Origin: a virus | Virus record (IMG/VR): IMGVR_UViG_3300041964_000008 | Coordinates: 1 to 55,704 of that record | Length of the DNA: 55,704 nt | Strand: one strand, 5' to 3' | Part shown: one piece after another, positions 634 through 54,737 of the stretch | How the letters are laid out: each line of letters opens with the position of its first letter | Numbering within the stretch: the stretch's first letter is position 1 | Notes under the pieces: model-generated | Seen by the model: the letters and a program-made list of their open reading frames with translations, nothing else | Databases searched by the model: none | Told to the model about the DNA's origin: nothing | Made by a program: the position numbers and the translations under genes

Positions 634-662
634 TCATTATGGGGCATGTATAAGGTGCGAAA
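634..662 (-). promoter_or_regulatory. Promoter-like repeat element
   Basis: Minus strand: CTTTCGC, seven bases, ACATG, then CATAATGA; a TATAAT-like -10 about 30 nt upstream of the ribosome site of the 329-601 gene. Confidence 0.6.
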
Positions 663-666
663 GCTG

Positions 667-689
667 TAAGCCCTTGTAGGGGGCTTACA
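667..689 (-). terminator. Hairpin GTAAGCCC/GGGCTTAC
   Basis: An eight-base-pair stem on the minus strand directly after the 699-950 gene and directly before the promoter-like element at 634-662. Confidence 0.65.
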
Positions 690-698
690 ACCGTGACG

Positions 699-950
699 CT
701 AGAGTTTGGTGACGACGATACCGTCCTCGTATGTCGCATCGGGGGCCAGGTTCTTTCCGATCGCGTTCAGGTAGTTCAGCTCGAACTGTCCCAGTCGTGT
801 GTTCTCGTTGTAGAACTCTCGCACGATCTCTTCGGTAGAGACTCGGTGCGAAAAGTGCTGTTCACGATTACGACGAATGAGAGGCTCGAGGCGTTCCATC
901 TGCTCGATCATGATCTCGATGGCCCGCATTTGCGGTTGTGAGAGTGGCAT
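699..950 (-). CDS. Hypothetical protein, helical
   Basis: 83 residues from MPLSQPQMRAIEIM, ATG at 950 preceded by GAAAGG. The first half is a predicted amphipathic helix rich in Glu/Arg (IEIMIEQMERLEPLIRRNRE). The second half is mixed and ends in DGIVVTKL. Cytoplasmic, no recognised domain. It is monocistronic, with a promoter-like element upstream at 973-1001 and a hairpin downstream. Confidence 0.7.
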   Translation of the reverse strand: MPLSQPQMRAIEIMIEQMERLEPLIRRNREQHFSHRVSTEEIVREFYNENTRLGQFELNYLNAIGKNLAPDATYEDGIVVTKL

Positions 951-972
951 GGGGTTTACCTTTCTATAGATG

Positions 973-1001
973 TCATTATAGGGCGTGTTCTTTGTGCGAA
1001 A
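973..1001 (-). promoter_or_regulatory. Promoter-like repeat element
   Basis: Minus strand: GTTTCGC, seven bases, ACACG, then TATAATGA, with a perfect TATAAT hexamer. It serves the 699-950 gene. Confidence 0.65.
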
Positions 1002-1005
1002 CTGA

Positions 1006-1028
1006 AAGCCCTTGTGGGGGCTTCCAGT
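1006..1028 (-). terminator. Hairpin AAGCCC/GGGCTT
   Basis: On the minus strand, GGAAGCCC, a loop, then GGGCTTTC. It lies between the 1036-1308 gene and the next promoter-like element. Confidence 0.6.
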
Positions 1029-1035
1029 AGAAGGG

Positions 1036-1308
1036 TTACTTCTTGACAATCTCGCAGAACTTGTTCTTCTTGGGAGGAGTGACGAACTCGTAGTCACGGT
1101 TGAACATGTTGTCCGGGCACCAGCAGTTGCCAAGCCCAACGACTGTCGGGGCGTTCTTTCCTCCACCGACGTAGATGGCTTCCGGCTGATTGATGATCAG
1201 CCAGTCGCCGTACGTCTGTGAAGGACCGATCGTCGCGAAGCCACCGGGAAGGCAGGCTACTGCGATCGGATAGGTTTCGGGGGTGATTTGGAGGGCCATC
1301 ATCTTCAT
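1036..1308 (-). CDS. Conserved phage protein, unknown function
   Basis: 90 residues. The start is ATG at 1308; Met3 or Met4 are also possible because no strong Shine-Dalgarno decides. The core is YPIAVACLPGGFA, then TYGDWLIINQPEAIYVGG and a Cys-containing NCWCPDN, suggesting a small beta-rich cytoplasmic protein. The 'GDWLI' piece recalls the GDWI motif of the paralogs at 2606-2911 and 3328-3639, but the similarity is too short to claim homology. Confidence 0.6.
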   Translation of the reverse strand: MKMMALQITPETYPIAVACLPGGFATIGPSQTYGDWLIINQPEAIYVGGGKNAPTVVGLGNCWCPDNMFNRDYEFVTPPKKNKFCEIVKK

Positions 1309-1337
1309 GAGGGTTTCCGTTCGGGTTGAGGGTTATG

Positions 1338-1366
1338 TCATTAGAGGCCCTGTTTTCCTTGCGAAA
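1338..1366 (-). promoter_or_regulatory. Promoter-like repeat element
   Basis: Minus strand: GTTTCGC, seven bases, ACAGG, then TCTAATGA. The same ACAGGGCCTCTAATGA block recurs at 16662, 18258 and 18364. Confidence 0.65.
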
Positions 1367-1399
1367 CCGAAAGCCCTTGTGGGGCTCACGGCTGTGAAA

Positions 1400-1648
1400 C
1401 TACTTCTGATGTTTGGCAACTGCTTCTTCAACGAGATCCTTGATCGTCGCGTTCTCTTCCACAAGCTTATTGATGGCTTGCTTCTGAATGATGACCATCG
1501 ACATGATCGATTCCAAGGTCGTGGTAGAGATTGTGGCTTCTCCACCGTATGACTTGGCAATCGTTCCGGCGAGGCCTTCAACCAGCAAGTCAGCACCATG
1601 GCTGAGTTTGTGGATAACTGCGAGGAATTCGGTGTCGTCTCTTGACAT
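1400..1648 (-). CDS. Hypothetical protein, helical
   Basis: 82 residues from MSRDDTEFLAVIHK, ATG at 1648 behind GAAAGGA. It is predicted to be almost entirely helical, with a C-terminal heptad-like stretch (NKLVEENATIKDLVEEAVAK) that could form a coiled coil. Cytoplasmic, no family recognised. A promoter-like element lies immediately upstream. Confidence 0.7.
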   Translation of the reverse strand: MSRDDTEFLAVIHKLSHGADLLVEGLAGTIAKSYGGEATISTTTLESIMSMVIIQKQAINKLVEENATIKDLVEEAVAKHQK

Positions 1649-1669
1649 GATTGTCCTTTCAGATAGGTT

Positions 1670-1697
1670 TCATTAGAGCGCATGTTACCTACGCGAC
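1670..1697 (-). promoter_or_regulatory. Promoter-like repeat element
   Basis: Minus strand: GAGTCGC, seven bases, ACATG, then TCTAATGA. It overlaps the last codons and the TAA of the 1685-1873 gene, so no terminator separates the two. Confidence 0.55.
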
Positions 1698-14124: not shown

Positions 14125-14445
14125 TCAACGATCTTCGATATCGGTCATGATGTAATGGAACTTCGCAGCCACTTCCGTATCGGGGCAGTCGTATCGCTCC
14201 TTGGCGAGCCAAGAACACAAGCGTTCGGCGTGTTCTCTTCCTTCTGCAGTCGACAGGTTTACCTTGAACGTGACTGTGTACTCCTCGTTTTGATTAAGCA
14301 AATGCCGAACCGAGGATTCGTTAAGACTCATCCTTTCAGCAATTTCGGCAATGGAATAACCCGTATCTTTCAGGCTCCATGCTTCCTTGATGTCTTGTGT
14401 TCTTGCTTCCTGGGACTTCTTGAAGCGTTCAACGCGGTCGCTCAT
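14125..14445 (-). CDS. Helix-turn-helix protein
   Basis: 106 residues from MSDRVERFKKSQEART, ATG 14445. Residues about 25-55 (LKDTGYSIAEIAERMSLNES, then SVRHLL) are a clear helix-turn-helix of the resolvase/sigma-like type. The C-terminal half (TVTFKVNLSTAEGREHAERL) may be a dimerisation or ligand domain. The HTH is very similar in wording to the second HTH of the RNA polymerase-like protein at 46731-49436 (LSNIAIGEKMGINESSVRSL), so it could bind the same kind of site. Probable transcription regulator. Confidence 0.7.
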   Translation of the reverse strand: MSDRVERFKKSQEARTQDIKEAWSLKDTGYSIAEIAERMSLNESSVRHLLNQNEEYTVTFKVNLSTAEGREHAERLCSWLAKERYDCPDTEVAAKFHYIMTDIEDR

Positions 14446-16661: not shown

Positions 16662-16689
16662 TCATTAGAGGCCCTGTTTTCTTTGCGAC
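16662..16689 (-). promoter_or_regulatory. Promoter-like repeat element
   Basis: Minus strand: AGGTCGC, seven bases, ACAGG, then TCTAATGA. It serves the 16409-16636 gene. Confidence 0.6.
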
Positions 16690-16690
16690 C

Positions 16691-16786
16691 TCACCCATAC
16701 CCCCAATCCTTACGATCGTCTACCACACGCATGAAAACCCGTGCTCGGTTCGAGTCCTTGTGACAGTGAGGAGGATATGCTTTCAT
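16691..16786 (-). CDS. Small Cys/His peptide
   Basis: 31 residues, MKAYPPHCHKDSNRARVFMR to the stop at 16691, ATG 16786 behind GAGAGG. In frame upstream without a start lies SDWGCCDPCEGEGLR, whose Cys cluster together with HCH would make a zinc site. The real start may be near 16826, hidden by an indel at the end of the DUF6353 gene. Confidence 0.45.
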   Translation of the reverse strand: MKAYPPHCHKDSNRARVFMRVVDDRKDWGYG

Positions 16787-16826
16787 TCGCAATCCCTCTC
16801 CCTCACACGGGTCGCAGCAACCCCAA

Positions 16827-17617
16827 TCACTGCATGTGGCTGTAGTTCCTGAGAGGGGCTGCATCGAAATCAAGCGAGATACACGGCCGTCCGTCATCGG
16901 CCAGAACTGGCGTCGGATCGATCTCGAACTCGTCACCCATGGCCGTCCAACCGACGTGATCGGACAACTTGGTGGCTGAAATACCGATCAGCTCGTAGAA
17001 GTCGGTCAACGACGCCTCATCGTTCTTCAAACGCTTGGCGTTGACCTTGTTCTGAGCATCCAGAATCGTGTGCATGTCACTGTAGAAATATCGCTCGGAC
17101 ATGGGGTCGAAGCACAGCACATCTCCTCCTCCCGTGATGATGATCTGTGCCTTGTTCGGAGGATGCCGATCGAACTTCTCCTTCGCCACCTCTGCACGCA
17201 CCTTCGACTCCTTGGTCAGGCCAAAGTGCTCTTTCACCTTGTCCTTGTACTCGGAGTGAGCACGCTGAGAGAGCGCAAAGGCGGTTGCCATAGCTGCTAC
17301 ACGCTGCGTGTTGATGCGATTCGCCATGACGATCGAGGCGATTGTTAGCGCTCCTGCTCCAATGGGCGGAATATAGAGCGTCCACAGAAGTCGTGTCTTG
17401 TCCATCCAGTCGACAGGCTTCGCGGTCCTCTTCGATGCCGTAGCATCTTTGGTTCGAGCGATGCGCTCCATCTGGAGGATGCCGGCGGACTTGTATGCAG
17501 CCCGTCCGGTCAAATATGCGGTTGCGACCGTGCCGAGTACTCCGATACCCGTCAGATGGTCGGTGAGTTGTCGGTGATGAGCTTGCCTGCTTTGTAGCTG
17601 AACTTGGAAAAGTCCAT
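16827..17617 (-). CDS. DUF6353-family membrane protein (copy 2, one apparent frameshift)
   Basis: About 263 residues. Starts MDFSKFSYKAGKLITDN at 17617 (AAGGAG). After ITDNSPTI the frame must shift by one base near 17555 to continue LTGIGVLGTVATAYLTGRAA. Two hydrophobic helices follow the family pattern (GVLGTVATAYLTG and WTLYIPPIGAGALTIASIVM). The soluble part has QIIITGGGDVLCFDPMSERY, LTDFYELIGISATKLSDHVG and SLDFDAAPL. DUF6353 is a phage family of unknown role; the copy at 11625-12539 is larger. Confidence 0.75.
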
Positions 17618-17638
17618 GGGGGTCTCCTTGTATAGGGG

Positions 17639-17833
17639 TCAGCTGCTCTTGCGGGTGAGTGTTCGGATCGTTCGAATGGCTTCCGCAAGAAGAATCAGCT
17701 TCATGCGATCGCGCCGGGACAGAATGAAGGTCATGGCGAACTTCATGCAGATCACTGCCCGATCGTACGTCGTTCGAGCGAAGTACAGACGCACGCCAAG
17801 CCAGAGAAGGCGTAAGCGTACGAGGAATATCAT
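17639..17833 (-). CDS. Basic hydrophobic small protein
   Basis: 64 residues, MIFLVRLRLLWLGVRLYFAR onward, ATG 17833 just inside the end of 17841-17982. Alternating Arg and hydrophobic residues (FILSRRDRMKLILLAEAIRT) suggest amphipathic helices lying on the membrane. No family recognised. Followed by the DUF6353 gene. Confidence 0.55.
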   Translation of the reverse strand: MIFLVRLRLLWLGVRLYFARTTYDRAVICMKFAMTFILSRRDRMKLILLAEAIRTIRTLTRKSS

Positions 17834-17840
17834 CGGCGCC

Positions 17841-17982
17841 TCATTCGCGGACGAAGATCCAGATGAGCCAGAGCCCACCCGTGAGCAACGTCATGATGAC
17901 GTCGCCCAAGAAGGCAAGGCATCCGTACTGCTCGAACGTTGGTCTGACCGGACTCGACGTGGCATAGCTCGTCATATCTCAT
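17841..17982 (-). CDS. Small membrane protein (one apparent frameshift)
   Basis: About 46 residues: MRYDELCH, one-base shift near 17960, then SPVRPTFEQYGCLAFLGDVI, MTLLTGGLWLIWIFVRE and stop. ATG 17982 follows TTGGAAGG. The second half is a classic helical hairpin or single membrane span (LTGGLWLIWIF). 142 bases is not a multiple of three, supporting an indel. Confidence 0.55.
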
Positions 17983-18017
17983 GCGGATCCTTCCAATAGG
18001 GGGGGGTCGAAAAGTGT

Positions 18018-18099
18018 GAGAAGATGTATACGATGGATGGTCGTATCACTTCAAGTTCAGCGGCCGGGTTAGGGCTCGATGACTCATAAGTGTCTTCTC
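18018..18099 (-). ncRNA. Candidate structured RNA A (three-way junction)
   Basis: The minus strand folds as an outer stem GAGAAGA/TCTTCTC, an adjoining stem CACTT/AAGTG and a hairpin ATACGA-7 nt-TCGTAT, with the helices directly abutting. It lies immediately after a promoter-like element (18098-18125) and contains no good ORF. The T-loop and D-loop consensus of a tRNA is absent. The start of transcription might trim part of the outer stem. Confidence 0.4.
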
Positions 18100-18125
18100 A
18101 TTAGGGGGCTTGTTTTTTTCGCGAG
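18098..18125 (-). promoter_or_regulatory. Promoter-like repeat element
   Basis: Minus strand: GACTCGC, seven bases, ACAAG, then CCTAATGA. It points into candidate RNA A. Confidence 0.55.
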
Positions 18126-18135
18126 TCAAAAATTT

Positions 18136-18259
18136 GAGGAGAGGTATACGGCCCAACGAAAGCTGTATCGTTAACTAGCTGCTTGGTACTTGCTAGCACT
18201 CCGGGTAGGATTCTAACCTACACATTCGTGTCTCGGAAACTCTTTCGAGTTCTCTTCTC
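18136..18259 (-). ncRNA. Candidate structured RNA B
   Basis: Outer stem GAGAAGAG/CTCTCCTC with one mismatch encloses hairpins AACTC-GAAA-GAGTT, GTAGG-7 nt-CCTAC and CTAGC-11 nt-GCTAG. No ORF or ribosome site. The GTAGG hairpin has a tRNA T-arm-like loop (TTAGAAT), but no matching acceptor or D-arm was found. Confidence 0.4.
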
Positions 18260-18286
18260 ATTAGAGGCCCTGTTTTCTCTGCGAAA
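18258..18286 (-). promoter_or_regulatory. Promoter-like repeat element
   Basis: Minus strand: GTTTCGC, seven bases, ACAGG, then TCTAATGA. It points into candidate RNA B. Confidence 0.6.
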
Positions 18287-18292
18287 CATGTA

Positions 18293-18363
18293 GACCATGT
18301 ATTCAATGACAGGCTTTAACTGGAATGATCTCTGCAGCGAAGTAATTGCTGAATTGCATGGTC
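18293..18363 (-). ncRNA. Candidate structured RNA C
   Basis: 71 nt with outer stem GACCATG/CATGGTC extended by ATTC/GAAT across a small internal loop, and an inner CAGC/GCTG hairpin. It follows the promoter-like element at 18364-18391 directly. No ORF. Confidence 0.4.
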
Positions 18364-18391
18364 TCATTAGAGGCCCTGTTTTCCTTGCGAA
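18364..18391 (-). promoter_or_regulatory. Promoter-like repeat element
   Basis: Minus strand: CTTCGC, seven bases, ACAGG, then TCTAATGA. It points into candidate RNA C. Confidence 0.6.
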
Positions 18392-18394
18392 GAA

Positions 18395-18421
18395 TAAGAG
18401 CCCGTGTTGGGGGACTCTTAT
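18395..18421 (-). terminator. Hairpin TAAGAGTCCC/GGGCTCTTA
   Basis: Imperfect stem on the minus strand after the 18430-18576 gene, immediately before the promoter-like element at 18364. Confidence 0.55.
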
Positions 18422-18429
18422 TCGTGAAG

Positions 18430-18576
18430 CTACTTCTTGAGGGAGCGGACGGTCTTCTTTGTCGCTCCACCAAGCACTCGAACCACGAGCAGGATGAGTA
18501 GCACTGGGATGAGCAGTGCGATCATCATGATCGAGATATCGAAGGCGTTGGCGGAGATCGTATTCCAGATTTCCAT
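18430..18576 (-). CDS. Small membrane protein
   Basis: 48 residues: MEIWNTISANAFDISIMM, then IALLIPVLLILLVVRVLGG and a basic tail ATKKTVRSLKK. ATG 18576 follows GAAAGGA. One transmembrane helix with a positive C-terminus, so the N-terminus is probably outside. Monocistronic between a promoter-like element and a hairpin. Confidence 0.75.
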   Translation of the reverse strand: MEIWNTISANAFDISIMMIALLIPVLLILLVVRVLGGATKKTVRSLKK

Positions 18577-18601
18577 GGGTGTCCTTTCAGATTGTATGTC
18601 T

Positions 18602-18629
18602 TCATTATAGGGCTGGTAAATATCGCGAG
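18602..18629 (-). promoter_or_regulatory. Promoter-like repeat element
   Basis: Minus strand: TCCTCGC, seven bases, ACCAG, then TATAATGA. It serves the 18430-18576 gene. Confidence 0.55.
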
Positions 18630-18637
18630 GAAAACCT

Positions 18638-18662
18638 AAAGCCCATGTAGGGCTCTAGGCTA
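18638..18662 (-). terminator. Hairpin CTAGAGCCC/GGGCTTTAG
   Basis: Stem of about eight pairs on the minus strand after the 18667-18816 gene, followed by GTTTTCC. Confidence 0.6.
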
Positions 18663-18666
18663 GAAC

Positions 18667-18816
18667 CTAGTGCTTCTTGCCGAGGTCTTTGTCCATCTCG
18701 TTCAGGTGCTTTCCGGCTTCCTTCATGAAGTCCAACCAGCCGTAAATCGCCATAGCGATTCCGACGTAGGTTAGACCGTTCCGGATCTTGCGGAAAGTGA
18801 ATCGAAGTGTCTTCAT
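18667..18816 (-). CDS. Small membrane-associated protein
   Basis: 49 residues from MKTLRFTFRKIRNGLTYVG, ATG 18816 behind GAAAGG. A basic N-terminus, a short hydrophobic stretch (LTYVGIAMAIYGWLDF) and a charged helical tail (KEAGKHLNEMDKDLGKKH). Likely inserted with the tail in the cytoplasm. Not recognised. Confidence 0.7.
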   Translation of the reverse strand: MKTLRFTFRKIRNGLTYVGIAMAIYGWLDFMKEAGKHLNEMDKDLGKKH

Positions 18817-18838
18817 TCTCGTGCCTTTCTAGTAGGGT

Positions 18839-18868
18839 TCTATTATAAGCCATGTAGAATATGCGAAA
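18839..18868 (-). promoter_or_regulatory. Promoter-like repeat element
   Basis: Minus strand: TTTTCGC, seven bases, ACATG, then TATAATAG. It serves the 18667-18816 gene. Confidence 0.6.
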
Positions 18869-18869
18869 A

Positions 18870-18895
18870 CCCAGACCCCGTGTAGGGGCCTAGGC
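18870..18895 (-). terminator. Hairpin CCTAGGCCCC/GGGGTCTGGG
   Basis: GC-rich imperfect stem on the minus strand, followed by TTTTCGC, after the 18901-19068 gene. Confidence 0.55.
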
Positions 18896-18900
18896 TCAGA

Positions 18901-19068
18901 TCAGAGCTCGATGACGGAACTGCGGTTGCGTGTCCGAACGAACCACACACAGCCGAGGCCCAGAGTCAACACGATGACGAGCACGAGTATGGATGTGCGT
19001 CGGCGTTGGAAGAGTCTGGGTCGGATGACGGTGTGGTGGCGGTCGAATCCATAATTGGAATTCAACAT
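18901..19068 (-). CDS. Small bitopic membrane protein
   Basis: 55 residues, MLNSNYGFDRHHTVIRPRLF onward, ATG 19068 behind GAAAGGA. A basic cytoplasmic stretch (RPRLFQRRRTS) precedes one transmembrane helix (ILVLVIVLTLGLGCVWFV) and a short RTRNRSSVIEL tail. No family recognised. Confidence 0.7.
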   Translation of the reverse strand: MLNSNYGFDRHHTVIRPRLFQRRRTSILVLVIVLTLGLGCVWFVRTRNRSSVIEL

Positions 19069-19096
19069 GAGTGTCCTTTCAATGGAGGATTGATCT

Positions 19097-19124
19097 TCAT
19101 TAGACGACTTGTATAAATTGCGAA
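19097..19124 (-). promoter_or_regulatory. Promoter-like repeat element
   Basis: Minus strand: ACTTCGC, seven bases, ACAAG, then TCTAATGA. It serves the 18901-19068 gene. Confidence 0.55.
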
Positions 19125-34086: not shown

Positions 34087-34112
34087 TTTGACTGTTTCCC
34101 TTCTTTTTAGTG

Positions 34113-34757
34113 TCAACGGCCTGCTGGCGCCGACTTGGACTTCTTACTAGCTGTCTTTCGAGCATCTTCAAGAGCTTCTTGAATCTTCTCTCGAACATCA
34201 GCAATCTGCTTCTGAAGAGCGACAAGTTCCTTGGCAGGGGGCTTGTCTTTGTTCTTCTTTCGGTACTCTTCAGCTCGCTTAGCAGCTTCCTTCTTCTGCT
34301 TAGGAGACAACTTGTCGTTCTTAGCGTCCGCTTTGTCCTTCTTGTTAGCGGCTTCTTCCTTTGGGTCGATGCCACTTCGAAGCTTTGCGGCTTCAACTAG
34401 ACCGGCAAGGTGTTCCTTTAGCTTGTCAAGGCGTCCCTCTAGGGCTGCTACCTGGGCCTTAATGGCCTCGCTGCCTGCCGAAGATGCTCCTGAGGACCCT
34501 TTTGGTCCACCACCAGCTTGTCCGCCTCCACCGCCTGATCCGGAGGGGCTATCGCCTCCGCCGGATCGTCTACCCTTTAGCCGACGAGTCCTCAAGTAAT
34601 ACTCTCGGGCCTTTGCCGGATCGTAGTCTGCACCGTGAAGGAGCGGCGAGTCGTCGGGGGCGGTTAACTCTCGATAGAACCGACGAGCGTCTTCTAAATC
34701 ATAGAGTTGTCCATGTAGAAGAGCTGAATCATCAGGCACTGACGTCTTCATCTGCAT
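34113..34757 (-). CDS. Head-associated protein with duplicated LLHG..YD motif
   Basis: 214 residues, start MQMKTSVPDDSALLHGQLYD (34757; Met3 is equally possible), overlapping the portal stop. The N-terminus has a tandem motif, PDDSALLHGQLYDLEDARRF and PDDSPLLHGADYDPAKAREY, ending YLRTRRLKGRRSGG. This YY.RTR.LKGR signature is frequent in head proteins of actinophages. A Gly/Ser linker follows, then coiled coil (VAALEGRLDKLKEHLAGLVE) and Lys-rich helix (KKDKADAKNDKLSPKQKKEA). Probably a virion or scaffold component. Confidence 0.65.
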   Translation of the reverse strand: MQMKTSVPDDSALLHGQLYDLEDARRFYRELTAPDDSPLLHGADYDPAKAREYYLRTRRLKGRRSGGGDSPSGSGGGGGQAGGGPKGSSGASSAGSEAIKAQVAALEGRLDKLKEHLAGLVEAAKLRSGIDPKEEAANKKDKADAKNDKLSPKQKKEAAKRAEEYRKKNKDKPPAKELVALQKQIADVREKIQEALEDARKTASKKSKSAPAGR

Positions 34758-36080: not shown

Positions 36081-36437
36081 TCAGTCTCGAGGATCGGTGA
36101 TCGTTCCCGAGAGAGGACTGTTTGGGCTGGTGTTGATCAACCGTGCGTCCCCGGTTCGATCCGTAGTTGTCATTGGAAATGCTCGAGTGAGTCCGCTGAC
36201 TACCATTCCGCCAACAGGTCCCGCTAGCATGGAAGCTGCGATGGTTGCACCGACGCCAACAAAAGCCGCGGCTGCTACCTTTTGATTCCTCGTGAAGCTC
36301 CGAGGCGTTGAAGTCTTCTTCTTCTTAGCACTAGACGACGAAGTTGAAGTCTTGTTGGTGACGCCCCACTTCATACCCTTTTTTCCAAAGTGTTCCAGTA
36401 CTTCTCCGGGAGAAGATGGCTTATCGAAAGTAGTCAT
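36081..36437 (-). CDS. KGMKWG-tagged head protein with membrane-like segment (copy 1)
   Basis: 118 residues from MTTFDKPSSPGEVLEHFGKK, ATG 36437 behind AAAGGAGG. Residues about 13-26 carry LEHFGKKGMKWGV, a signature of actinophage head-associated proteins. A Ser/Lys linker then leads to a hydrophobic Gly/Ala-rich segment (VAAAAFVGVGATIAASMLAG) and VGGMVVSGLTRAFPMTTTDR. Paralog of 36473-36835 with the same architecture. Probably packaged in the virion; function unknown. Confidence 0.7.
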   Translation of the reverse strand: MTTFDKPSSPGEVLEHFGKKGMKWGVTNKTSTSSSSAKKKKTSTPRSFTRNQKVAAAAFVGVGATIAASMLAGPVGGMVVSGLTRAFPMTTTDRTGDARLINTSPNSPLSGTITDPRD

Positions 36438-36472
36438 GTAAGAAGCCTCCTTTCCTGATTGAATATAAGTCA

Positions 36473-36835
36473 TCACTTGCTCCGATAGCTGGTTAGTCTA
36501 GCGTTATCAGCTGCCAATTCACTAGTAATAGCAGCTGCCTCACTACTGATTCTATCCAGCCTAGCTTCATTCTCACGAAACGTTGTGGTAACCGGAAGCG
36601 AGTTAACTGCTTTTGTGATTCCGGATACCAACATGTCACCTAGTGGACCCGCCACCATAGCTGCTGCGACGGTGGCTCCTATACCAACAGCCGCTGCGAC
36701 CTTTTGATTCTTCGTGAAACGAGCGGGTGTTGCTTTCGTCTTTGCTGATGAACCGGAAGATGAAGTATCGTTTCGAACACCCCACTTCATGCCTTTTGTA
36801 CCGAAGTGTGAAAGAACCTCTTCGGAAGTGCTCAT
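36473..36835 (-). CDS. KGMKWG-tagged head protein with membrane-like segment (copy 2)
   Basis: 120 residues, MSTSEEVLSHFGTKGMKWGV onward, ATG 36835 overlapping the terminase TGA. After the tag come SSSGSSAKTKATPARFTKNQ, a hydrophobic segment (KVAAAVGIGATVAAAMVAG) and a C-terminal helix (AAAITSELAADNARLTSYRS). It is clearly duplicated with 36081-36437. The hydrophobic segment could be exposed on ejection, which is speculation. Confidence 0.7.
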   Translation of the reverse strand: MSTSEEVLSHFGTKGMKWGVRNDTSSSGSSAKTKATPARFTKNQKVAAAVGIGATVAAAMVAGPLGDMLVSGITKAVNSLPVTTTFRENEARLDRISSEAAAITSELAADNARLTSYRSK

Positions 36836-38591: not shown

Positions 38592-39200
38592 CTATTTGCC
38601 TTCAGGTTTCTTCTCGTCGTCCTTCTTGCCAGGTGTGATACGCTCTCCGACTTTCATCAGATGCTTATCTCCACTAGCTTTGAGCAATTGCTCTACTCTT
38701 AGAGCCGCAGAACCCTTTGACACTCTCTTGACTTCAGCTTGTCCGATCTCAGACAAGAGATCGAAGGCAAACTTCTTTGCCTTTTCTTTCTTAGATAGGA
38801 TCTTCGGAGGAGCTGACTTTGCTATAGCGTCAGAATACTTCCGCTCCATGTCCATTCGATCAACCAGAGCTTTCATATCAGCATTAGACAATGAAGAAGC
38901 CGGCTTCGCGCGCAAGGCAGCAGCTGTCTTGAAGTCCGTGGACGGACTGTCACTGTCGTCCATGTGCTTCTTCGCTGATGCAAGCTGCGCTCGAACATGA
39001 GCTTCTTCACTCTTGCTGCCGCGAAACACTCCGGTTTCAGTGTTAACCTGAAGCTTCGACGGGTCGTACTTGACTTGGTACTTCTCGCCGGTCTTAGGAT
39101 TGACCACCGAAAACGAACTCGTACGGTTACGATCCTTACGAATACCCCACTTCATACCCTTGACTCCGGCATGCTCAAGTAGAGCTTCAACTGCGTCCAT
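38592..39200 (-). CDS. KGMKWG-tagged head protein, soluble
   Basis: 202 residues, MDAVEALLEHAGVKGMKWGI onward, ATG 39200 behind AAAGGAGG. After the tag come SFSVVNPKTGEKYQVKYDPS, then a helical Lys-rich remainder (SEEAHVRAQLASAKKHM, PKILSKKEKAKKFAFDLLSE) and a basic end. No membrane segment, unlike the other two tagged proteins. It sits directly upstream of the large terminase. Likely a minor virion protein. Confidence 0.65.
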   Translation of the reverse strand: MDAVEALLEHAGVKGMKWGIRKDRNRTSSFSVVNPKTGEKYQVKYDPSKLQVNTETGVFRGSKSEEAHVRAQLASAKKHMDDSDSPSTDFKTAAALRAKPASSLSNADMKALVDRMDMERKYSDAIAKSAPPKILSKKEKAKKFAFDLLSEIGQAEVKRVSKGSAALRVEQLLKASGDKHLMKVGERITPGKKDDEKKPEGK

Positions 39201-40781: not shown

Positions 40782-43162
<2,381 letters not shown>

Positions 43163-46406: not shown

Positions 46407-46685
46407 TCAAGACGGAACGTCCTCGATAACGAGTCCTGTCTCGGCCGACACCTTGCGATGAACGCCTGAAGCGTTGAGCCTAACGATGGTGTCGATAGCG
46501 TCCTCTCTGGCAAGAATCTGATCTGCTTCTGACATCTCAGAAGATGTAACGATGACTCTTGCCAGTAGTGCCAGTGAGTGGTACCCGGCGGTTGAATCAA
46601 ATGAATACCATTCTTTGAACTGTGTGATTGGGTTCCATGGATTGTCAACCGTCGTCAGCACGTGTGTCGTCCGTCGATCAGCCAT
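46407..46685 (-). CDS. Conserved small phage protein
   Basis: 92 residues, MADRRTTHVLTTVDNPWNPI onward, ATG 46685 behind AAGGAGG. TQFKEWYSFDSTAGYHSLAL, LARVIVTSSEMSEADQILAR and EDAIDTIVRLNASGVHRKV match a short protein widespread in phages of Gram-positive bacteria, always with 'D.P..P...F.EW...D...GY'. Function not known. It follows the RNA polymerase-like gene in the same operon. Confidence 0.7.
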   Translation of the reverse strand: MADRRTTHVLTTVDNPWNPITQFKEWYSFDSTAGYHSLALLARVIVTSSEMSEADQILAREDAIDTIVRLNASGVHRKVSAETGLVIEDVPS

Positions 46686-46730: not shown

Positions 46731-49436
46731 TCATCCGCCTAGCTCCTTCTTCAGTGTGGTGAGGGAGACGCCTAGGGCAGCAGCGATCTCGCCTTGGGTG
46801 TAGCCCTGGTCAGCCATCTGTTTCGCTCTGTTGATCTTGGTGGAGGTCATCAGTTTGGTTGAACGGGGGGTTGCAAGAGCCTTCACGATGTCGAGGTCGG
46901 CATTGTCTAGGATTCGTGCTAACTTGGTAGGGCTGATTGCCCCAGCCTGCACGGCTTCCCACTCACGGGGGGTAATTTCGATCTTTTGTTTGCCTGCCCC
47001 CATTCGCATTCGTGCCTCAGTGAGTGCTTGTCCTTCAACCTTCTTGCGTGTAGCAGGGTCCATGTTTGGATTGGAGGCCACTTTAGCAGCGATGGCGGTA
47101 TTTGCAATGACCTGGGCCTGTCTTTCAAGGGGGGCATTGCGTTGCGCAATCTTTAGCTTTGCTGTTAGTGAATCAGCTTCAGCCTTGAATGCCTTGTTAG
47201 CCTGATTGTCATAAGGCTTGTTCTTGATCGAGAGAGTAGACAGACGAGCGTCATTGGCTAAGGCCTTCATTCGATTAGAATGATCGGCATAGATCTTCTC
47301 CATGACTGTAGGGTTAGGCCGTGATGTCAGAGTGTGAGCATCGTTGGTCTCAGCCAACTTAACAGACTGCTCTGTTAGAACCTTACGCAAACCTGTCTTA
47401 GTGAAGTAGTGCTCACCAGTCTCCTTATAGACCTTCTCACCAGTCTTAGGATCTATAGGTCCACCCTCAGAAGCCCTTCGCAGTCTACGCCTAGGTACAT
47501 CCGTTCGAGACGTAGCCCTAGAGATCAGTGTAGAGGATCCACCAGGACGACCACCTGTCTCTTTAGCCTGATACTTACGCTGTAGAGACACGATGTTGTT
47601 GTCTATGAAAGACTGCTTGTAGTTCAACTCATGGTTCACAGCATCGATGACAACCATAGCGTGACGTACAGCAGCAGCGATCTCATCAGGCTTAGCCTTC
47701 TTAAGAGTCATGTCTGTGATGAGGTTAGAGACAGACCCCATCTCAAAGCCCTTCTCACCTTCAGTCATCACCTTCATACCATCAAACTTAGGGTAACTCA
47801 GCTTGGCATCAAAGTCCTTTAGACCCTCTAATCGAGCAGTGGTCTTTATCTTGGGATTAGCGATAGGGTTCGGTATCACAAGGACTGTGTCACCATCAAA
47901 GTCTGCACCAGACAGGTGTCCAGCAACCTTGCTATGGATGCCCACTACATCCTTAGCTAGAGGACCAATGAGCTTTACAGCCTCAGGTTGACGATTGTTG
48001 ACTATCAGTTCAGGGATCTCGAACGTACCACCATGAGGGAAGCGAATCAGAGCGACTCGCTCTCCATGATCGTAGTTGGGCGCATAGATCTCTGTTACCT
48101 TCATGCTGTCGATAGGAAGAAGCACTTGTGTGCTCTGACGTGGCAGCTTGTGTGCCGTTAGCTCTACAGCTAAGGAGTCAGCACTATCAGCATAGCTCTC
48201 AAGAAGCTTCTTCTTGACTGTGGGGTTGGTGAGAGCCTTGATCTCGTCAAGTTCCATCTTTCGCTGTTCATGAGTCATAGACAATTGAGTTTTAGCCAGA
48301 ATAGGACTCTGCTTAGACAGAACTTGTGTAGAGATGACGTTTCTCCACTTGTCCCAGTCACCTTCCTTGTTCACAAGGTTCATTGCAGAGGTAACTTCGA
48401 GAATCGGCCCATCTGGATACTCACGTTTTCCGATTTGCTTGATAGTAGCCCCAAAAGGATTCTCAGGATCATCGGAAATCGGCTTTAGGACAGCTAGCTT
48501 GTCCTTGTACTTAGGATCGCTCTTAAGCTTGGGTGTATGGAATTGAATGTCCGTACCACGAGGAAGATCGTCCTTGTACATGGCCATACCCTTGATGTAG
48601 TGAGTACCATCAACCAAAATTCGAACTTGTGCGTAATTGGCACCTCCCAAAGAGAGGTCATCCTTACCAGGACGCAAATAGACCAATCCATCAAGCTTAG
48701 ATCCACCATCCTCACCGTACACGACCTTGATTCGACTTGAACTTACGGAAAGCGGAGACTTGGTTTGGTAGTACGACCGTCCACCGTCATCAGAGATCGT
48801 CGTGATGTCCTTGATCTGACCGAGATCTTTGACGAGGTCCTTATACGTAGTTCCAGGCTTAGCCAACACCTTAATAGTGGTCTTCTTACGACCACCAGTC
48901 CCGATTGTAGGTGTCTGAACTAGCTCATACGCATAACCTTCGGCTTTTAGGATGCTAACGGCCGTAGCAAGAAACTCCTTGCTCACATAGCGGTGATTCT
49001 CGACACCTCTACCAACATCGATAGCCCCTTTTTCCGCAATCTGGTCACGAAGCATTTGAGCAGTCGCTTTGAGGATGCTGACCTTCTCTAATTCGCCTGG
49101 CTTGAGAAGGCTTCGAACAGAAGACTCGTTAATCCCCATCTTCTCGCCAATAGCGATGTTCGACAGACCTTTATCCTTCAACTTCTGAGCAGTCGCGATG
49201 TCAGCTGCCTTTTTGGCGTTTCGAGCAATGGTCTTCGTGATTCTCAGATCTGTGGTGGACATATCAAGGCCTTTTGCGATTTGAAGATCCGTAAGACCCT
49301 TATCCTTCATCTCCTGGATGTAATCCGTGAACATCTTGCTTCGCTTGGCCTCAGTTCCACCAGAACCCCAAGGATAGCGACCTGACTTTCGAAGAATGCC
49401 GTAGTGTGCCAGATGTGCGCTTTCATCAATGATCAT
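46731..49436 (-). CDS. Double-psi beta-barrel RNA polymerase-like protein with helix-turn-helix domains
   Basis: 901 residues, ATG 49436 overlapping the previous stop, behind AGGAGAGG. Residues 8-27 (HLAHYGILRKSGRYPWGSGG) resemble the 'H.G..KGMKWG' tag of this phage's head proteins. Two helix-turn-helix units follow near 37-70 (YIQEMKDKGLTDLQIAKGLD) and 82-112 (LKDKGLSNIAIGEKMGINES). The catalytic region has IRFPHGGTFEIPELIVNNRQ, AKDVVGIHSKVAGHLSG and ADFDGDTVLVIP at 511-522, equivalent to the NADFDGD metal-binding loop of cellular RNA polymerase beta-prime and YonO/QDE-1-type enzymes. Then EMGSVSNLITDMTLKKA and AMVVIDAVNHELNYKQSFID. A third helix-turn-helix ends the protein (MADQGYTQGEIAAALGVSLT). 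Transcription by a single-chain polymerase is the leading hypothesis; the family is known in phages but poorly characterised. Confidence 0.75.
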   Translation of the reverse strand: MIIDESAHLAHYGILRKSGRYPWGSGGTEAKRSKMFTDYIQEMKDKGLTDLQIAKGLDMSTTDLRITKTIARNAKKAADIATAQKLKDKGLSNIAIGEKMGINESSVRSLLKPGELEKVSILKATAQMLRDQIAEKGAIDVGRGVENHRYVSKEFLATAVSILKAEGYAYELVQTPTIGTGGRKKTTIKVLAKPGTTYKDLVKDLGQIKDITTISDDGGRSYYQTKSPLSVSSSRIKVVYGEDGGSKLDGLVYLRPGKDDLSLGGANYAQVRILVDGTHYIKGMAMYKDDLPRGTDIQFHTPKLKSDPKYKDKLAVLKPISDDPENPFGATIKQIGKREYPDGPILEVTSAMNLVNKEGDWDKWRNVISTQVLSKQSPILAKTQLSMTHEQRKMELDEIKALTNPTVKKKLLESYADSADSLAVELTAHKLPRQSTQVLLPIDSMKVTEIYAPNYDHGERVALIRFPHGGTFEIPELIVNNRQPEAVKLIGPLAKDVVGIHSKVAGHLSGADFDGDTVLVIPNPIANPKIKTTARLEGLKDFDAKLSYPKFDGMKVMTEGEKGFEMGSVSNLITDMTLKKAKPDEIAAAVRHAMVVIDAVNHELNYKQSFIDNNIVSLQRKYQAKETGGRPGGSSTLISRATSRTDVPRRRLRRASEGGPIDPKTGEKVYKETGEHYFTKTGLRKVLTEQSVKLAETNDAHTLTSRPNPTVMEKIYADHSNRMKALANDARLSTLSIKNKPYDNQANKAFKAEADSLTAKLKIAQRNAPLERQAQVIANTAIAAKVASNPNMDPATRKKVEGQALTEARMRMGAGKQKIEITPREWEAVQAGAISPTKLARILDNADLDIVKALATPRSTKLMTSTKINRAKQMADQGYTQGEIAAALGVSLTTLKKELGG

Positions 49437-49993
49437 CCTAGGGCCTCCTCTCGAAGAGTCTTGATTCGCTTGTCAAAGGTAACGATTCTGTCCATGATGT
49501 GGAAGATCACGTCGGGGTCCGCCTCAAATAGTTGAATCTCATCGCTCTGGTAGATGCGAAGTTCTGTACGAATCGAGAAAGGACGAAACTTGTACTCGAG
49601 ACAGAACAACGCAGCATAGACCTCTAGCTGTCGAACTGTTGCTGGATGTATTCCCGTTTTCAGATCCGAGATTCGCAATCGATTGCTTCGAAACGAGACA
49701 ACGTCGGCAGTGCCAAACGCGTTTTCCGAATAGAACAAAGGTTGCTCCGGAGTCATCCGGAATCCGATCGAATCGTTGACGTACATGTTCAACGTTTTTG
49801 GTATCCGGGGAAGTTTGACACCAAGACGAATGCACATGTGAGCAAGAACGTGTAACTCAGTACCTCTCTGCGCTGCCTGATTCATGTAGAAGACTCGCTC
49901 GAGTTTGTCTTCATCATAATTCACCCACGACGACTTGCTCGCACTCAAAAAGGCATGTTTGCCTTCAAGCGCGGAATGCTTGTTGAAGCGCAT
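49433..49993 (-). CDS. Cas4/RecB-like PD-(D/E)XK nuclease
   Basis: 186 residues from MRFNKHSALEGKHAFLSASK. The longer frame to 50062 lacks a ribosome site. QAAQRGTELHVLAHMCIRLG provides the N-terminal Glu/His, NAFGTADVVSFRSNRLRISD with Asp of GTADVV, RISDLKTGIHPATVRQLEVY with D-x-K and the QLEVYA helix: the RecB-family nuclease pattern. No Cys cluster for an iron-sulphur cluster is apparent. Probably processes DNA ends during replication or recombination. Confidence 0.75.
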   Translation of the reverse strand: MRFNKHSALEGKHAFLSASKSSWVNYDEDKLERVFYMNQAAQRGTELHVLAHMCIRLGVKLPRIPKTLNMYVNDSIGFRMTPEQPLFYSENAFGTADVVSFRSNRLRISDLKTGIHPATVRQLEVYAALFCLEYKFRPFSIRTELRIYQSDEIQLFEADPDVIFHIMDRIVTFDKRIKTLREEALG

Positions 49994-50267
49994 CAAGGAC
50001 CTCAGTTTCGTTCTCGGGATAAATGAAAGCACCGAAGGACATTTGGTTTGCCTGTGAAACAAACCACTCTTGGTTGGGCTGTTGCTCAGCGTTGATCTTC
50101 GGTTTGACTTCTAGCATGGCCCATCGATCGTTCCAGAAGATGCTCAGATCCGGAATGCCTTGTTGGTAGTCCGTGTCGTTCTTGAGAATGATGCATCCTG
50201 GAAAGATCTGACGAAGTCGCTTGATAAGACCTTCTTGATAATTCGACTCAAGTTTTGTCTGACGCAT
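49965..50267 (-). CDS. VRR-NUC/resolvase-like nuclease
   Basis: 100 residues from MRQTKLESNYQEGLIKRLRQ, ATG 50267 behind GGAGG. PGCIILKNDTDYQQGIPDLS, IFWNDRWAMLEVKPKINAEQ contain the GIPD and E-x-K catalytic motifs of the PD-(D/E)XK superfamily in the VRR-NUC/phage resolvase arrangement, followed by QEWFVSQANQMSFGAFIYPE. Possible structure-specific nuclease or Holliday junction resolvase. First gene behind the promoter-like element at 50319-50346. Confidence 0.75.
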   Translation of the reverse strand: MRQTKLESNYQEGLIKRLRQIFPGCIILKNDTDYQQGIPDLSIFWNDRWAMLEVKPKINAEQQPNQEWFVSQANQMSFGAFIYPENETEVLDALQQAFRA

Positions 50268-50318
50268 CTTCGCCTCCGATCGCAAAAAGGGAGAGAACGT
50301 GTTTTTAAAGACGTCCTT

Positions 50319-50346
50319 CTATTAGGGGGCATGTTTCATCCACGAG
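50319..50346 (-). promoter_or_regulatory. Promoter-like repeat element upstream of nuclease-polymerase operon
   Basis: Minus strand: TCTCGTGG, spacer, ACATG, then CCTAATAG. A degenerate copy followed by a 50-base leader to ATG 50267. It would drive both nucleases and the RNA polymerase-like gene. Confidence 0.45.
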
Positions 50347-53103: not shown

Positions 53104-53132
53104 TCATTATGCACCATGTATACCTCGCGAAA
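53104..53132 (-). promoter_or_regulatory. Promoter-like repeat element
   Basis: Minus strand: TTTTCGC, seven bases, ACATG, then CATAATGA. It serves 52899-53081. Confidence 0.65.
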
Positions 53133-53133
53133 A

Positions 53134-53158
53134 CCGTAAGCCCTTGTAGGCGCTTAGG
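53134..53158 (-). terminator. Hairpin CTAAGCGCC/GGGCTTACGG
   Basis: Stem AAGC.CC/GGGCTT on the minus strand after 53167-53316, followed by GTTTTCGC. Confidence 0.55.
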
Positions 53159-53166
53159 TTGGTGAA

Positions 53167-53316
53167 TCAGTTCTTGTCGAAGTACTGGGGGTTGTCGAGC
53201 TTCCACTTCACGGCCAGGGTGGTAACCCACAGTGCGATAACGATCATGACGATGATCGCGAACGGCAACATGGTGTTAACAAAGTTGGCCCAGAAGGTAA
53301 AGATGTCTGACAGCAT
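53167..53316 (-). CDS. Small membrane protein
   Basis: 49 residues: MLSDIFTFWANFVNTMLPFA, IIVMIVIALWVTTLAVKWKL, DNPQYFDKN. ATG 53316 follows AAGGAG. One long hydrophobic helix with a short polar C-terminus. No family; monocistronic. Confidence 0.7.
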   Translation of the reverse strand: MLSDIFTFWANFVNTMLPFAIIVMIVIALWVTTLAVKWKLDNPQYFDKN

Positions 53317-53340
53317 GGCTGTTCTCCTTAGAATTGGGTT

Positions 53341-53369
53341 TCATTATGCACCATGTAAATCTCGCGAAA
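53341..53369 (-). promoter_or_regulatory. Promoter-like repeat element
   Basis: Minus strand: CTTTCGC, seven bases, ACATG, then CATAATGA. It serves 53167-53316; nearly identical to the copy at 53104. Confidence 0.65.
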
Positions 53370-53371
53370 GA

Positions 53372-53392
53372 GAAAGCCCTTGTGGCCTTCTC
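53372..53392 (-). terminator. Hairpin GAAGGCC/GGGCTTTC
   Basis: Short imperfect stem on the minus strand after 53399-53548. Confidence 0.45.
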
Positions 53393-53398
53393 TCCCCT

Positions 53399-53548
53399 TC
53401 AGTGGGACGCTTTGTAGCTGTAGTTCAGTTGGAAGCTTCCGCTGTCCGGTGAGTGATTGAAGCAGTAGGGTTCGTCGTCATAAGCGACGTACTCTACGCA
53501 ATCAGGATGCTCACACGGGTGGAAGTCAGGGTTCTGTAACTCTGACAT
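53399..53548 (-). CDS. Small zinc-binding protein
   Basis: 49 residues: MSELQNPDFHPCEHPDCVEY, VAYDDEPYCFNHSPDSGSFQ, LNYSYKASH. C-x4-C followed eleven residues later by C-x2-H gives a CCCH zinc site. ATG 53548 follows GAAAGG. The long frame upstream to 53806 is antisense noise. Function unknown. Confidence 0.7.
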   Translation of the reverse strand: MSELQNPDFHPCEHPDCVEYVAYDDEPYCFNHSPDSGSFQLNYSYKASH

Positions 53549-53570
53549 GTCGTGCCTTTCTAATAGGGAT

Positions 53571-53599
53571 TCATTAGAGGACATGTATAACCAGCGAAA
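53571..53599 (-). promoter_or_regulatory. Promoter-like repeat element
   Basis: Minus strand: GTTTCGC, seven bases, ACATG, then TCTAATGA. It serves 53399-53548. Almost identical to the copy at 54174. Confidence 0.65.
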
Positions 53600-53600
53600 C

Positions 53601-53625
53601 CGTAAGCCCTTGTAGGGGCTCACGG
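53601..53625 (-). terminator. Hairpin GTGAGCCCC/GGGCTTACGG
   Basis: Stem GAGCCC/GGGCTT with CTACAA loop on the minus strand, after 53631-53816. Confidence 0.6.
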
Positions 53626-53630
53626 ATGAA

Positions 53631-53816
53631 TCAGTACAGCTGGCCTTTGGCGGCTCGGTGTTTGAGGCTGAGTTCGCGGTTTCTCTGGATCCATTTCGAG
53701 ATCGTCTGTTCGTAGAGGTCGTCGTAGAAGGTGTCCTTCTTATCTGATCTCTTGTAACGTTCGAGCTGTTTCTTCTCCAGATGATTTGCGCGACGAGCAT
53801 ATCCATCGATTGCCAT
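53631..53816 (-). CDS. Basic helical small protein
   Basis: 61 residues from MAIDGYARRANHLEKKQLER, ATG 53816 behind GAAAGGA. YKRSDKKDTFYDDLYEQTIS and KWIQRNRELSLKHRAAKGQL are highly charged and helical. Possibly nucleic-acid binding by composition. Not recognised. Confidence 0.65.
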   Translation of the reverse strand: MAIDGYARRANHLEKKQLERYKRSDKKDTFYDDLYEQTISKWIQRNRELSLKHRAAKGQLY

Positions 53817-53839
53817 CGTGTTCCTTTCTTGTAGTGGAT

Positions 53840-53868
53840 TCATTATAGGGTCTGTTCCTCACGCGAAA
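53840..53868 (-). promoter_or_regulatory. Promoter-like repeat element
   Basis: Minus strand: TTTTCGC, seven bases, ACAGA, then TATAATGA. It serves 53631-53816. Confidence 0.65.
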
Positions 53869-53869
53869 A

Positions 53870-53894
53870 CCTATACCCCGTGTAGGGATATAGG
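53870..53894 (-). terminator. Hairpin CTATATCCC/GGGGTATAG
   Basis: Stem of nine positions with loop TACAC on the minus strand, followed by GTTTTCGC, after 53902-54150. Confidence 0.65.
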
Positions 53895-53901
53895 GTTGAA
53901 C

Positions 53902-54150
53902 TCAGCGTAGAAGGATGGGCGTGAGCTTGAACTTGCCCTGGGGGATGTCGTAGACGCAGTCGCGTCCGAGCGTCATGACGAGGAAGTCGACCGGCGTCAC
54001 TTCCAGTAGCGTTGCCGACTGTATCGAAGCGTAAAACTTCGAGTACTTTCGGGAAACGATTACGGTGGAAATGACGGCGGCGACTGCAACGGCATGAGGC
54101 GCGTACTTGACGACCTTCTCCTTGACTTCCGAGCGTGTTGGGATGTTCAC
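53902..54150 (-). CDS. Small membrane protein with GTG start
   Basis: 82 residues. GTG 54150 is five bases after AAAGGA and no usable ATG exists in frame. MNIPTRSEVKEKVVKYAPHA, then one transmembrane helix (VAVAAVISTVIVSRKY) and a soluble C-terminal part (IQSATLLEVTPVDFLVMTLG, RDCVYDIPQGKFKLTPILLR). Monocistronic. No family. Confidence 0.7.
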   Translation of the reverse strand: MNIPTRSEVKEKVVKYAPHAVAVAAVISTVIVSRKYSKFYASIQSATLLEVTPVDFLVMTLGRDCVYDIPQGKFKLTPILLR

Positions 54151-54173
54151 ATTTGTCCTTTCTTGTGGTGGGT

Positions 54174-54202
54174 TCATTAGAGGACATGTATAACCAGCGG
54201 AA
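54174..54202 (-). promoter_or_regulatory. Promoter-like repeat element
   Basis: Minus strand: CTTCCGC (one change from TTTCGC), seven bases, ACATG, then TCTAATGA. It serves 53902-54150. Confidence 0.6.
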
Positions 54203-54203
54203 G

Positions 54204-54230
54204 CTGAAAGCCCTTGTAAGGACTTTCAGA
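54204..54230 (-). terminator. Hairpin CTGAAAGTCC/GGGCTTTCAG
   Basis: Ten-position stem with TTACAA loop on the minus strand, after 54245-54421. Confidence 0.7.
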
Positions 54231-54244
54231 TGAATATCAGGGGA

Positions 54245-54421
54245 TCAGCTGCGACAGCCGTAGTTGCTGTTGTGAGCCAACACCCTGACTGAGGAGTTCG
54301 GGTCTGCATAGATCTTGCAACCATACTCACATGAGCTGATTGCGATTTCGTACATGCGTGCACGAACCGTGGGGTCGGGGTGAATGAGCTCGTTGTGGGA
54401 AGTGGTGTACGTGATGTGCAT
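54245..54421 (-). CDS. Small Cys-containing protein
   Basis: 58 residues: MHITYTTSHNELIHPDPTVR, ARMYEIAISSCEYGCKIYAD, PNSSVRVLAHNSNYGCRS. ATG 54421 follows AAGGAG. Three Cys (C-x3-C and a late C) plus His may bind metal. Cytoplasmic, unrecognised. Confidence 0.65.
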   Translation of the reverse strand: MHITYTTSHNELIHPDPTVRARMYEIAISSCEYGCKIYADPNSSVRVLAHNSNYGCRS

Positions 54422-54442
54422 ACTTACTCCTTAATGAGGGAT

Positions 54443-54471
54443 TCATTAGAAGCCATGTTCCCTACGCGAAA
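54443..54471 (-). promoter_or_regulatory. Promoter-like repeat element
   Basis: Minus strand: CTTTCGC, seven bases, ACATG, then TCTAATGA. It serves 54245-54421. Confidence 0.65.
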
Positions 54472-54494
54472 GCTGAGAGCCTTTGTAGGGCTCT
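54472..54494 (-). terminator. Hairpin CGAGAGCCC/GGCTCTCAG
   Basis: Stem GAGAGCC/GGCTCTC on the minus strand, after 54504-54677. Confidence 0.65.
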
Positions 54495-54503
54495 CGCTTG
54501 TGA

Positions 54504-54677
54504 TCAGTACGCACTCCAGTTTGGGGCGTTGACGACGGTGCACGAGGACGTTTCTTCGCAGGACTCCTCGACGACGGCCTCCGCGTTGGCCTCCTGCCCG
54601 TGGTAAAGGGTGGTGGCGAGTGCGGTGACTACGACGAGGAGTACCATGATGAACACGTTCTTGAGTGTGTGGGTCAT
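54504..54677 (-). CDS. Small secreted or membrane-anchored peptide (copy 1)
   Basis: 57 residues from MTHTLKNVFIMVLLVVVTAL, ATG 54677 behind AAGGAG. The N-terminal helix (FIMVLLVVVTALATTLY) is a signal peptide or anchor. The exported part HGQEANAEAVVEESCEETSS, CTVVNAPNWSAY has two Cys five apart and a final P-x-W. Paralog of 54777-54945. Confidence 0.7.
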   Translation of the reverse strand: MTHTLKNVFIMVLLVVVTALATTLYHGQEANAEAVVEESCEETSSCTVVNAPNWSAY

Positions 54678-54708
54678 TACATTACTCCTTGATGGGTGGT
54701 GATACTTG

Positions 54709-54737
54709 TCATTAGGAGCCATGTAAAACGTGCGAAA
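54709..54737 (-). promoter_or_regulatory. Promoter-like repeat element
   Basis: Minus strand: TTTTCGC, seven bases, ACATG, then CCTAATGA. It serves 54504-54677. Confidence 0.65.

Follow-up and report, generated by a model that had tools for sequence, protein, structure and literature searches.

The window, i.e., the whole 55,704-nucleotide stretch of viral DNA analyzed here, encodes on its minus strand a 901-aa protein that is well supported, by its modeled structure, as a single-chain two-barrel RNA polymerase with its own DNA-binding domains; RNA synthesis is predicted. In the reading that we prefer (probability roughly 60%), this enzyme would be carried in the virion and transcribe the early genes, with an N-terminal tag directing its packaging and a repeated TCGC...TAATGA element serving as its promoter. 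The observations behind this reading are the fold match, the conserved catalytic motif, the conservation of the tag together with the exchange of its variants, and the placement of the motif. From them we infer that DNA is the template, that the tag is a packaging signal, and that the motif is the promoter of the enzyme. Both virion RNA polymerases (N4, P23-45 gp96, crAss-like) and two-barrel single-chain polymerases are already known kinds. As far as the searchable literature allows, the novelty lies in the tag link, in the candidate promoter, and in taking an existing database label as virion evidence.

The polymerase, its family and its fold

The initial annotation had reported an ORF at 46731-49436. 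This ORF is real (901 aa) and its strand was corrected to minus, the plus strand over the same interval being rich in stops. The phrog_4291 profile matches it in full length (1180 bits, residues 4-899), a sequence match that puts it far beyond a chance frame. The gene and its neighbors are:

46731..49436, minus strand: putative single-chain two-barrel RNA polymerase, phrog_4291 (901 aa, ATG at 49436)
49433..50062, minus strand: exonuclease gene (phrog_3953), directly upstream, a conserved neighbor
46407..46685, minus strand: small protein phrog_4303, encoded directly after the polymerase

The 3' end of the exonuclease gene overlaps the start codon of the polymerase gene, which lies at the end of the replication module and adjoins the late genes. 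The phrog_4303 protein is a possible partner or candidate accessory subunit of the polymerase; a similar protein, orf76 of Lactococcus phage 1706, likewise follows the polymerase gene, and other relatives have a small ORF after the polymerase, at the genome end. Elsewhere in the window, a second frame (14272-14412, minus strand) has 45% identity to polymerase residues 73-119 (the second helix-turn-helix, HTH) and represents a separate HTH protein.

A polymerase match at E<=0.01 was found in 250 of 50,697 phage records, and in 249 records the match covers at least 80%, all with less than 60% identity. Moreover, 207 stretches in IMG/VR encode relatives. The family is found in phages of two bacterial phyla (Actinobacteria and Firmicutes), with hosts such as Arthrobacter, Gordonia, Streptomyces, Lactococcus, Curtobacterium, Rhodococcus, Microbacterium, and Faecalibacterium. 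Its members are labeled in databases as 'RNA-dependent RNA polymerase', as 'helix-turn-helix DNA-binding domain protein' (in actinophages), or as hypothetical. The phrog_4291 family is therefore already known by annotation, yet unstudied: no functional test of it was found among the searchable papers.

The following regions were assigned within the protein:

48507..48755, minus strand: presumed first barrel region (about residues 228-310), with the conserved HYxKGMAMYK...K
47862..48149, minus strand: second barrel region (about residues 430-525), which holds the metal loop ADFDGD (nucleotides 47889-47906)
49233..49340, minus strand: first HTH (about residues 33-68), from PHROG/NCBIfam partial matches and model helices
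49101..49199, minus strand: second HTH (about residues 80-112), from profile matches and model helices
46737..46844, minus strand: C-terminal HTH (about residues 865-900), from HTH_23 above the Pfam cut-off and the model

In a 65-row alignment of the polymerase and its relatives, SGADFDGD is invariant, which bears out the metal loop ADFDGD noticed initially at residues 511-516. The assignment of residues 228-310 as the first barrel follows the fold match and is thus model-based; within it, K282 is invariant and K303 nearly invariant, and the two would act as catalytic lysines. The AlphaFold model (mean pLDDT 78, pTM 0.61) is disordered over the first 20 residues, which include most of the tag. 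Its best PDB matches in Foldseek were QDE-1 (E=1.7e-9), maize and Arabidopsis RDR2, and the phage polymerase P74 gp62. Structural alignment by VIA-align gave Z 14.6 for maize RDR2 (5.3 A over 437), 14.4 for QDE-1 (4.4 A over 373), 12.5 for P74 gp62 (5.0 A over 365), and 10.9 for P32 gp64. The matches to QDE-1, RDR2, and P74 gp62 lie mostly over model residues 226-738, which cover both barrels of the matched enzymes, and the two-barrel core is therefore supported, including the second barrel on which the initial annotation depended. Only fold comparison reached these structures, as a sequence search of the PDB with the single protein and with a profile gave no true match; the Pfam RdRP profile was reached weakly (E=0.055 for the 901-aa protein, 7e-5 for the 1706 orthologue).

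The earlier proposal of a single-chain double-psi barrel polymerase that brings its own DNA-binding domains agrees with the phrog_4291, AlphaFold, Foldseek, and VIA-align results. So does its count of two N-terminal HTH units and one C-terminal unit: HTH_23 passed the Pfam cut-off at the C-terminus, and the N-terminal pair has partial matches to the phage HTH family phrog_3855 (PHROG) and the HTH protein Cbp1 (NCBIfam), with model helices at 29-45/50-56/61-88 and 93-100/104-110.

The N-terminal tag and the virion

The polymerase starts with a tag whose resemblance to that of three other window proteins had already been pointed out in the initial annotation. The tagged features are:

49359..49412, minus strand: N-terminal tag LAHYGILRKSGRYPWGSG of the polymerase (residues 9-26), mostly disordered in the model and near-invariant in the family
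38592..39200, minus strand: DUF7211-tagged protein, directly upstream of the large terminase gene
36473..36835, minus strand: DUF7211-tagged protein, directly downstream of the large terminase gene
36081..36476, minus strand: DUF7211-tagged protein, between the terminase and portal genes

The 65-sequence alignment shows no variation at residues H11, G13, R16, S18, G19, R20, Y21, P22, G24, and S25 of the tag. Of 80 IMG/VR loci, a single one seemed tagless, and there the tag is encoded in another frame, which looks like a sequencing frameshift. The three proteins above are the only further proteins of the window with a tag-like motif, and all of them carry the GMKWG form and exceed the Pfam cut-off for DUF7211 (PF23847), a 25-residue family of unknown function. 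They flank the large terminase and portal genes; the name 'head proteins' given to them earlier is only a guess.

A scan of IMG/VR for the GMKWG form yielded at least 120 stretches, and 256 non-redundant tagged proteins were gathered from all loci, usually with the tag 5-20 residues from the chosen start and in 17 cases with two tags. Pfam DUF7211 was matched by 79 of the 82 tagged proteins scanned. Other domains on tagged proteins comprise GNAT acetyltransferase (8), papain-fold glutamine deamidase (3), and ADP-ribosyltransferase (1), as expected of injected cargo. It was also observed that the terminase/portal region of a single phage, Rhodococcus phage ReqiPepy6 (loci L112 and L206), encodes eight DUF7211-type tagged proteins.

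The polymerase tag, of the SGRYPWGSG form, is of the same kind as DUF7211 and lies beyond the reach of its HMM, which gave no match to the polymerase at E<=1. A profile comparison of the polymerase tag with the GMKWG tag gave E=1.4e-5 and a probability of 80%, and the half-tag [DE][DE][FY]LAHYG is common to both. Three cases bridge the two forms, so that we read them, on sequence grounds, as one tag. The polymerase of BitterVaud1 carries the intermediate form SGRYKWG. In gut phage MT835616, two small non-polymerase proteins bear polymerase-type tags (LAHYGLPRRSGRYKWGSG and LEHYGLPRRSGRYKYGSG). Their genes enclose that of a terminase with 70% identity to the window terminase, a position occupied in the window by GMKWG proteins. 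In locus L119, a protein carries SGRYPFGSG, and its body matches that of a GQKWG-tagged protein with 40% identity over 115 aa (E=2e-21). Two IMG/VR scans for the SGRYK[WYF]G and SGRYP[FY]G forms on small proteins found none, and small proteins with a polymerase-type tag are thus known only from MT835616 and L119.

With regard to the virion, the original GenBank record of Lactococcus phage 1706 (EU081845) labels orf75 as 'structural protein'. This protein is the orthologue of the window polymerase (35% identity along its length, tag LQHYGTKRHSGRYPWGSG, DFDGD kept), and orf7 of the same phage, with two DUF7211-type tags, has the same label. The label presumably came from virion proteomics, since we see no homology reason to call orf75, or the small orf62 and orf71, structural; in the RefSeq copy, orf75 was relabeled 'RNA-dependent RNA polymerase'. 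The packaging claimed in the initial annotation is supported only through the label of this orthologue in one GenBank record, and by analogy the window polymerase is a likely virion component. It is possible that the label reflects co-purifying contaminants.

A promoter-like element before early genes

An element of the form TCGCA-N4/5-WTACAYGSCCTATAATGA precedes early-region genes. Column statistics describe it as TCGC, 4-5 variable bases, and WTACA-G-CCTATAATGA, and nothing is conserved further upstream of TCGC, hence no -35 box. The pooled motif search required CGC to lie in a 14-nt interval, which accounts in part for its 100% conservation; it did not require the fixed spacing. The copies in the window include:

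53104..54735, minus strand: seven copies, TCGC-N..ACATG..CYTAATGA (CGC at 54734, 54468, 54199, 53865, 53596, 53366, 53129)
16662..19123, minus strand: six copies (CGC at 19122, 18865, 18389, 18283, 18123, 16687)
634..1696, minus strand: four copies (CGC at 1695, 1363, 998, 659)
50310..50345, minus strand: variant ACATGCCCCCTAATAGAAGG, upstream of the VRR-NUC/exonuclease/polymerase genes

A weighted consensus scan of the window found 23 matches on the coding strand versus 1 on the other strand (1.8 expected). The same scan gave 13 versus 1 in a Streptomyces phage, 14 versus 1 in a Gordonia phage, and 18 versus 1 in a Rhodococcus phage, chance expectation in these scans being 0.6-1.8 matches per strand. 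The window has 17 strict matches, all of them on the coding strand and none in the late module (43% of the genome). For most copies, a small ORF has its start codon 21-25 nt further downstream; in the region 53104..54735, six of the seven are paired with a small ORF starting 21-24 nt downstream.

Related forms occur in phages of two phyla, among them Bifidobacterium and Lactococcus phages; Lactococcus phages P092 and 1706 have TTTTACATACCCTATAATGA and TTTTACATACACTATAGTAG, and BitterVaud1 has ACATCGCTTATAATGA. Scored by the actinophage consensus, the element is weaker in BitterVaud1 and P092, and motif searches in three other relatives (G003, G023, and G026) gave no comparable element. A literature search with five core strings of the element found no phage paper, and a sigma-70 promoter scan near the polymerase gene was uninformative (9 sites versus 10.3 expected). 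Judged by its sequence and placement, the TCGC...TAATGA element is a candidate promoter of the polymerase. The earlier suggestion that the enzyme starts early transcription is strengthened by this motif upstream of early-region genes, at the level of a candidate.

Intergenic k-mer counts also revealed a repeated hairpin-like element, TACAAGGGCTYT (28 matches versus 5.8 expected), often followed by TTCGC...TATACATGTCCTCTAATGA or a variant. It may be a terminator or a processing hairpin. Its sites (54742, 54207, 13394, 46037, 299, and others, minus strand) are often just before the promoter-like element. In Streptomyces phage G005 (locus L223, e.g., positions 6676 and 7031), the element lies between inverted-repeat arms of differing sequence, which also take in the ribosome-binding site. 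From these repeats, seen by eye, read-through RNA might hide the ribosome-binding site and RNA started inside would not.

Proposed mechanism, alternatives and known systems

In the preferred reading, the polymerase would be directed into the head during assembly by its flexible N-terminal tag (a DUF7211 tag variant) and would enter the cell along with the phage DNA. There it would use its HTH units to initiate at the TCGC/ACAYG/TATAATGA element, so that the early genes are transcribed, and would perhaps transcribe its own operon as well through the TAATAGAAGG variant. More tentatively, and with somewhat less than even confidence, we suggest that a lineage on Actinobacteria and Firmicutes loads its heads via one modular N-terminal address tag. 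Its cargo would comprise the sigma-free two-barrel RNA polymerase and acetyltransferase, deamidase, and ADP-ribosyltransferase-type enzymes, and the injected polymerase would read a promoter conserved across host phyla.

The main rivals are use of the element by the host polymerase and a YonO-like late enzyme. Under the former, which we regard as rather unlikely, the polymerase is virion-borne and reads other sites, and the TCGC/TATAATGA element would be a promoter for a host sigma factor, copied along with small early genes. Part of the element is a sigma-70-like TATAAT, the bacterial -10 consensus, which the host polymerase could use, and the element sits in cassettes with hairpins and small ORFs. 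However, a conserved -35 box is lacking; what is conserved instead is TCGC 19 nt before TATAAT, with ACAYG between them, and a related form is shared by phages whose hosts, Lactococcus and Actinobacteria, belong to different phyla. It is unlikely, too, that the polymerase is a late enzyme made in infection and unpackaged, its tag tethering it to terminase/portal proteins or having another role. The location of the gene beside the late genes would fit, as would YonO, a single-chain two-barrel enzyme that transcribes the late genes of SPbeta (PMC5467207), and the separate non-virion enzyme of P23-45 (PMC10770324), but the late module has no copy of the promoter-like element, the 1706 orthologue is labeled structural, and the start of YonO is without this tag.

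The tag similarity could also be a convergence of short glycine/tryptophan-rich motifs unrelated to packaging. The tag has only about 18 residues, the profile probability is only 80%, and the DUF7211 HMM misses the polymerase; nevertheless, the shared [DE][DE][FY]LAHYG half, the polymerase-type tags on small proteins at terminase-flanking positions in MT835616, and the exchange of tag forms on homologous bodies make this explanation very improbable.

Tag, polymerase, and motif also co-occur. Of 29 long contigs picked by the GMKWG tag alone, 28 carry the polymerase. Of 31 contigs of at least 35 kb picked by the promoter-like motif alone, 27 have a strong match to the polymerase, and all 20 motif-chosen contigs of at least 50 kb carry it. 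This co-occurrence may reflect the common descent of one phage lineage: the capsid-protease fusion gene is distributed in nearly the same way (244 records versus 250 for the polymerase, with nearly equal host counts), so co-occurrence alone gives no proof of function.

Among known proteins, the window polymerase is a member of the phrog_4291 family, including orf75 of Lactococcus phage 1706, with full-length homology and the same tag, HTHs, and neighborhood. The best structural matches of its core, QDE-1 and plant RDR2, are eukaryotic RNA-silencing enzymes, which are not known to have the tag or the phage HTHs. Thermus phage P74 gp62 and P32 gp64, of the P23-45 non-virion type, have the same single-chain two-barrel fold, whereas their solved chains have about 590 residues versus 901 and only 14-15% sequence identity in the structural alignment. 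Enzymes of this type have been shown to be RNAPs, and P23-45 gp64 is absent from virions (PMC10770324). P23-45 gp96, in contrast, is a two-barrel RNAP in a siphovirus virion that transcribes pre-early genes (PMC10770324); it is fused to the tape measure protein, whereas the window polymerase has a gene of its own and a short tag. An hhalign comparison of the 65-row alignment with YonO gave a probability of 4% over 19 columns, YonO being a single sequence and thus a weak profile. We liken the polymerase to YonO by analogy and leave membership of the YonO family aside.

If the preferred reading is true, the few virion RNA polymerases known so far would be joined by those of a large cultivable lineage (about 250 sequenced phages, for which laboratory hosts exist), in which the polymerase is a tagged protein of its own and not part of a tape-measure fusion. 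A packaging tag that is short and exchangeable would make the selection of head cargo by phages accessible to study and to a simple genetic test, and a sigma-independent promoter common to host phyla would be a useful transcription tool. The annotations 'HTH protein' and 'RNA-dependent RNA polymerase' in about 250 phage genomes should then be revised.

Two other features of the window were observed. The capsid-protease fusion ORF (32052-34116, minus strand) stops early (569 aa) and seems to continue in another frame (ORF 32516-32052), whereas relatives have one long ORF; the break is probably a sequencing frameshift and possibly a programmed one. In addition, the region 40782-42876 (minus strand) encodes long collagen-like GPTG repeats, probably in tail-fibre proteins.
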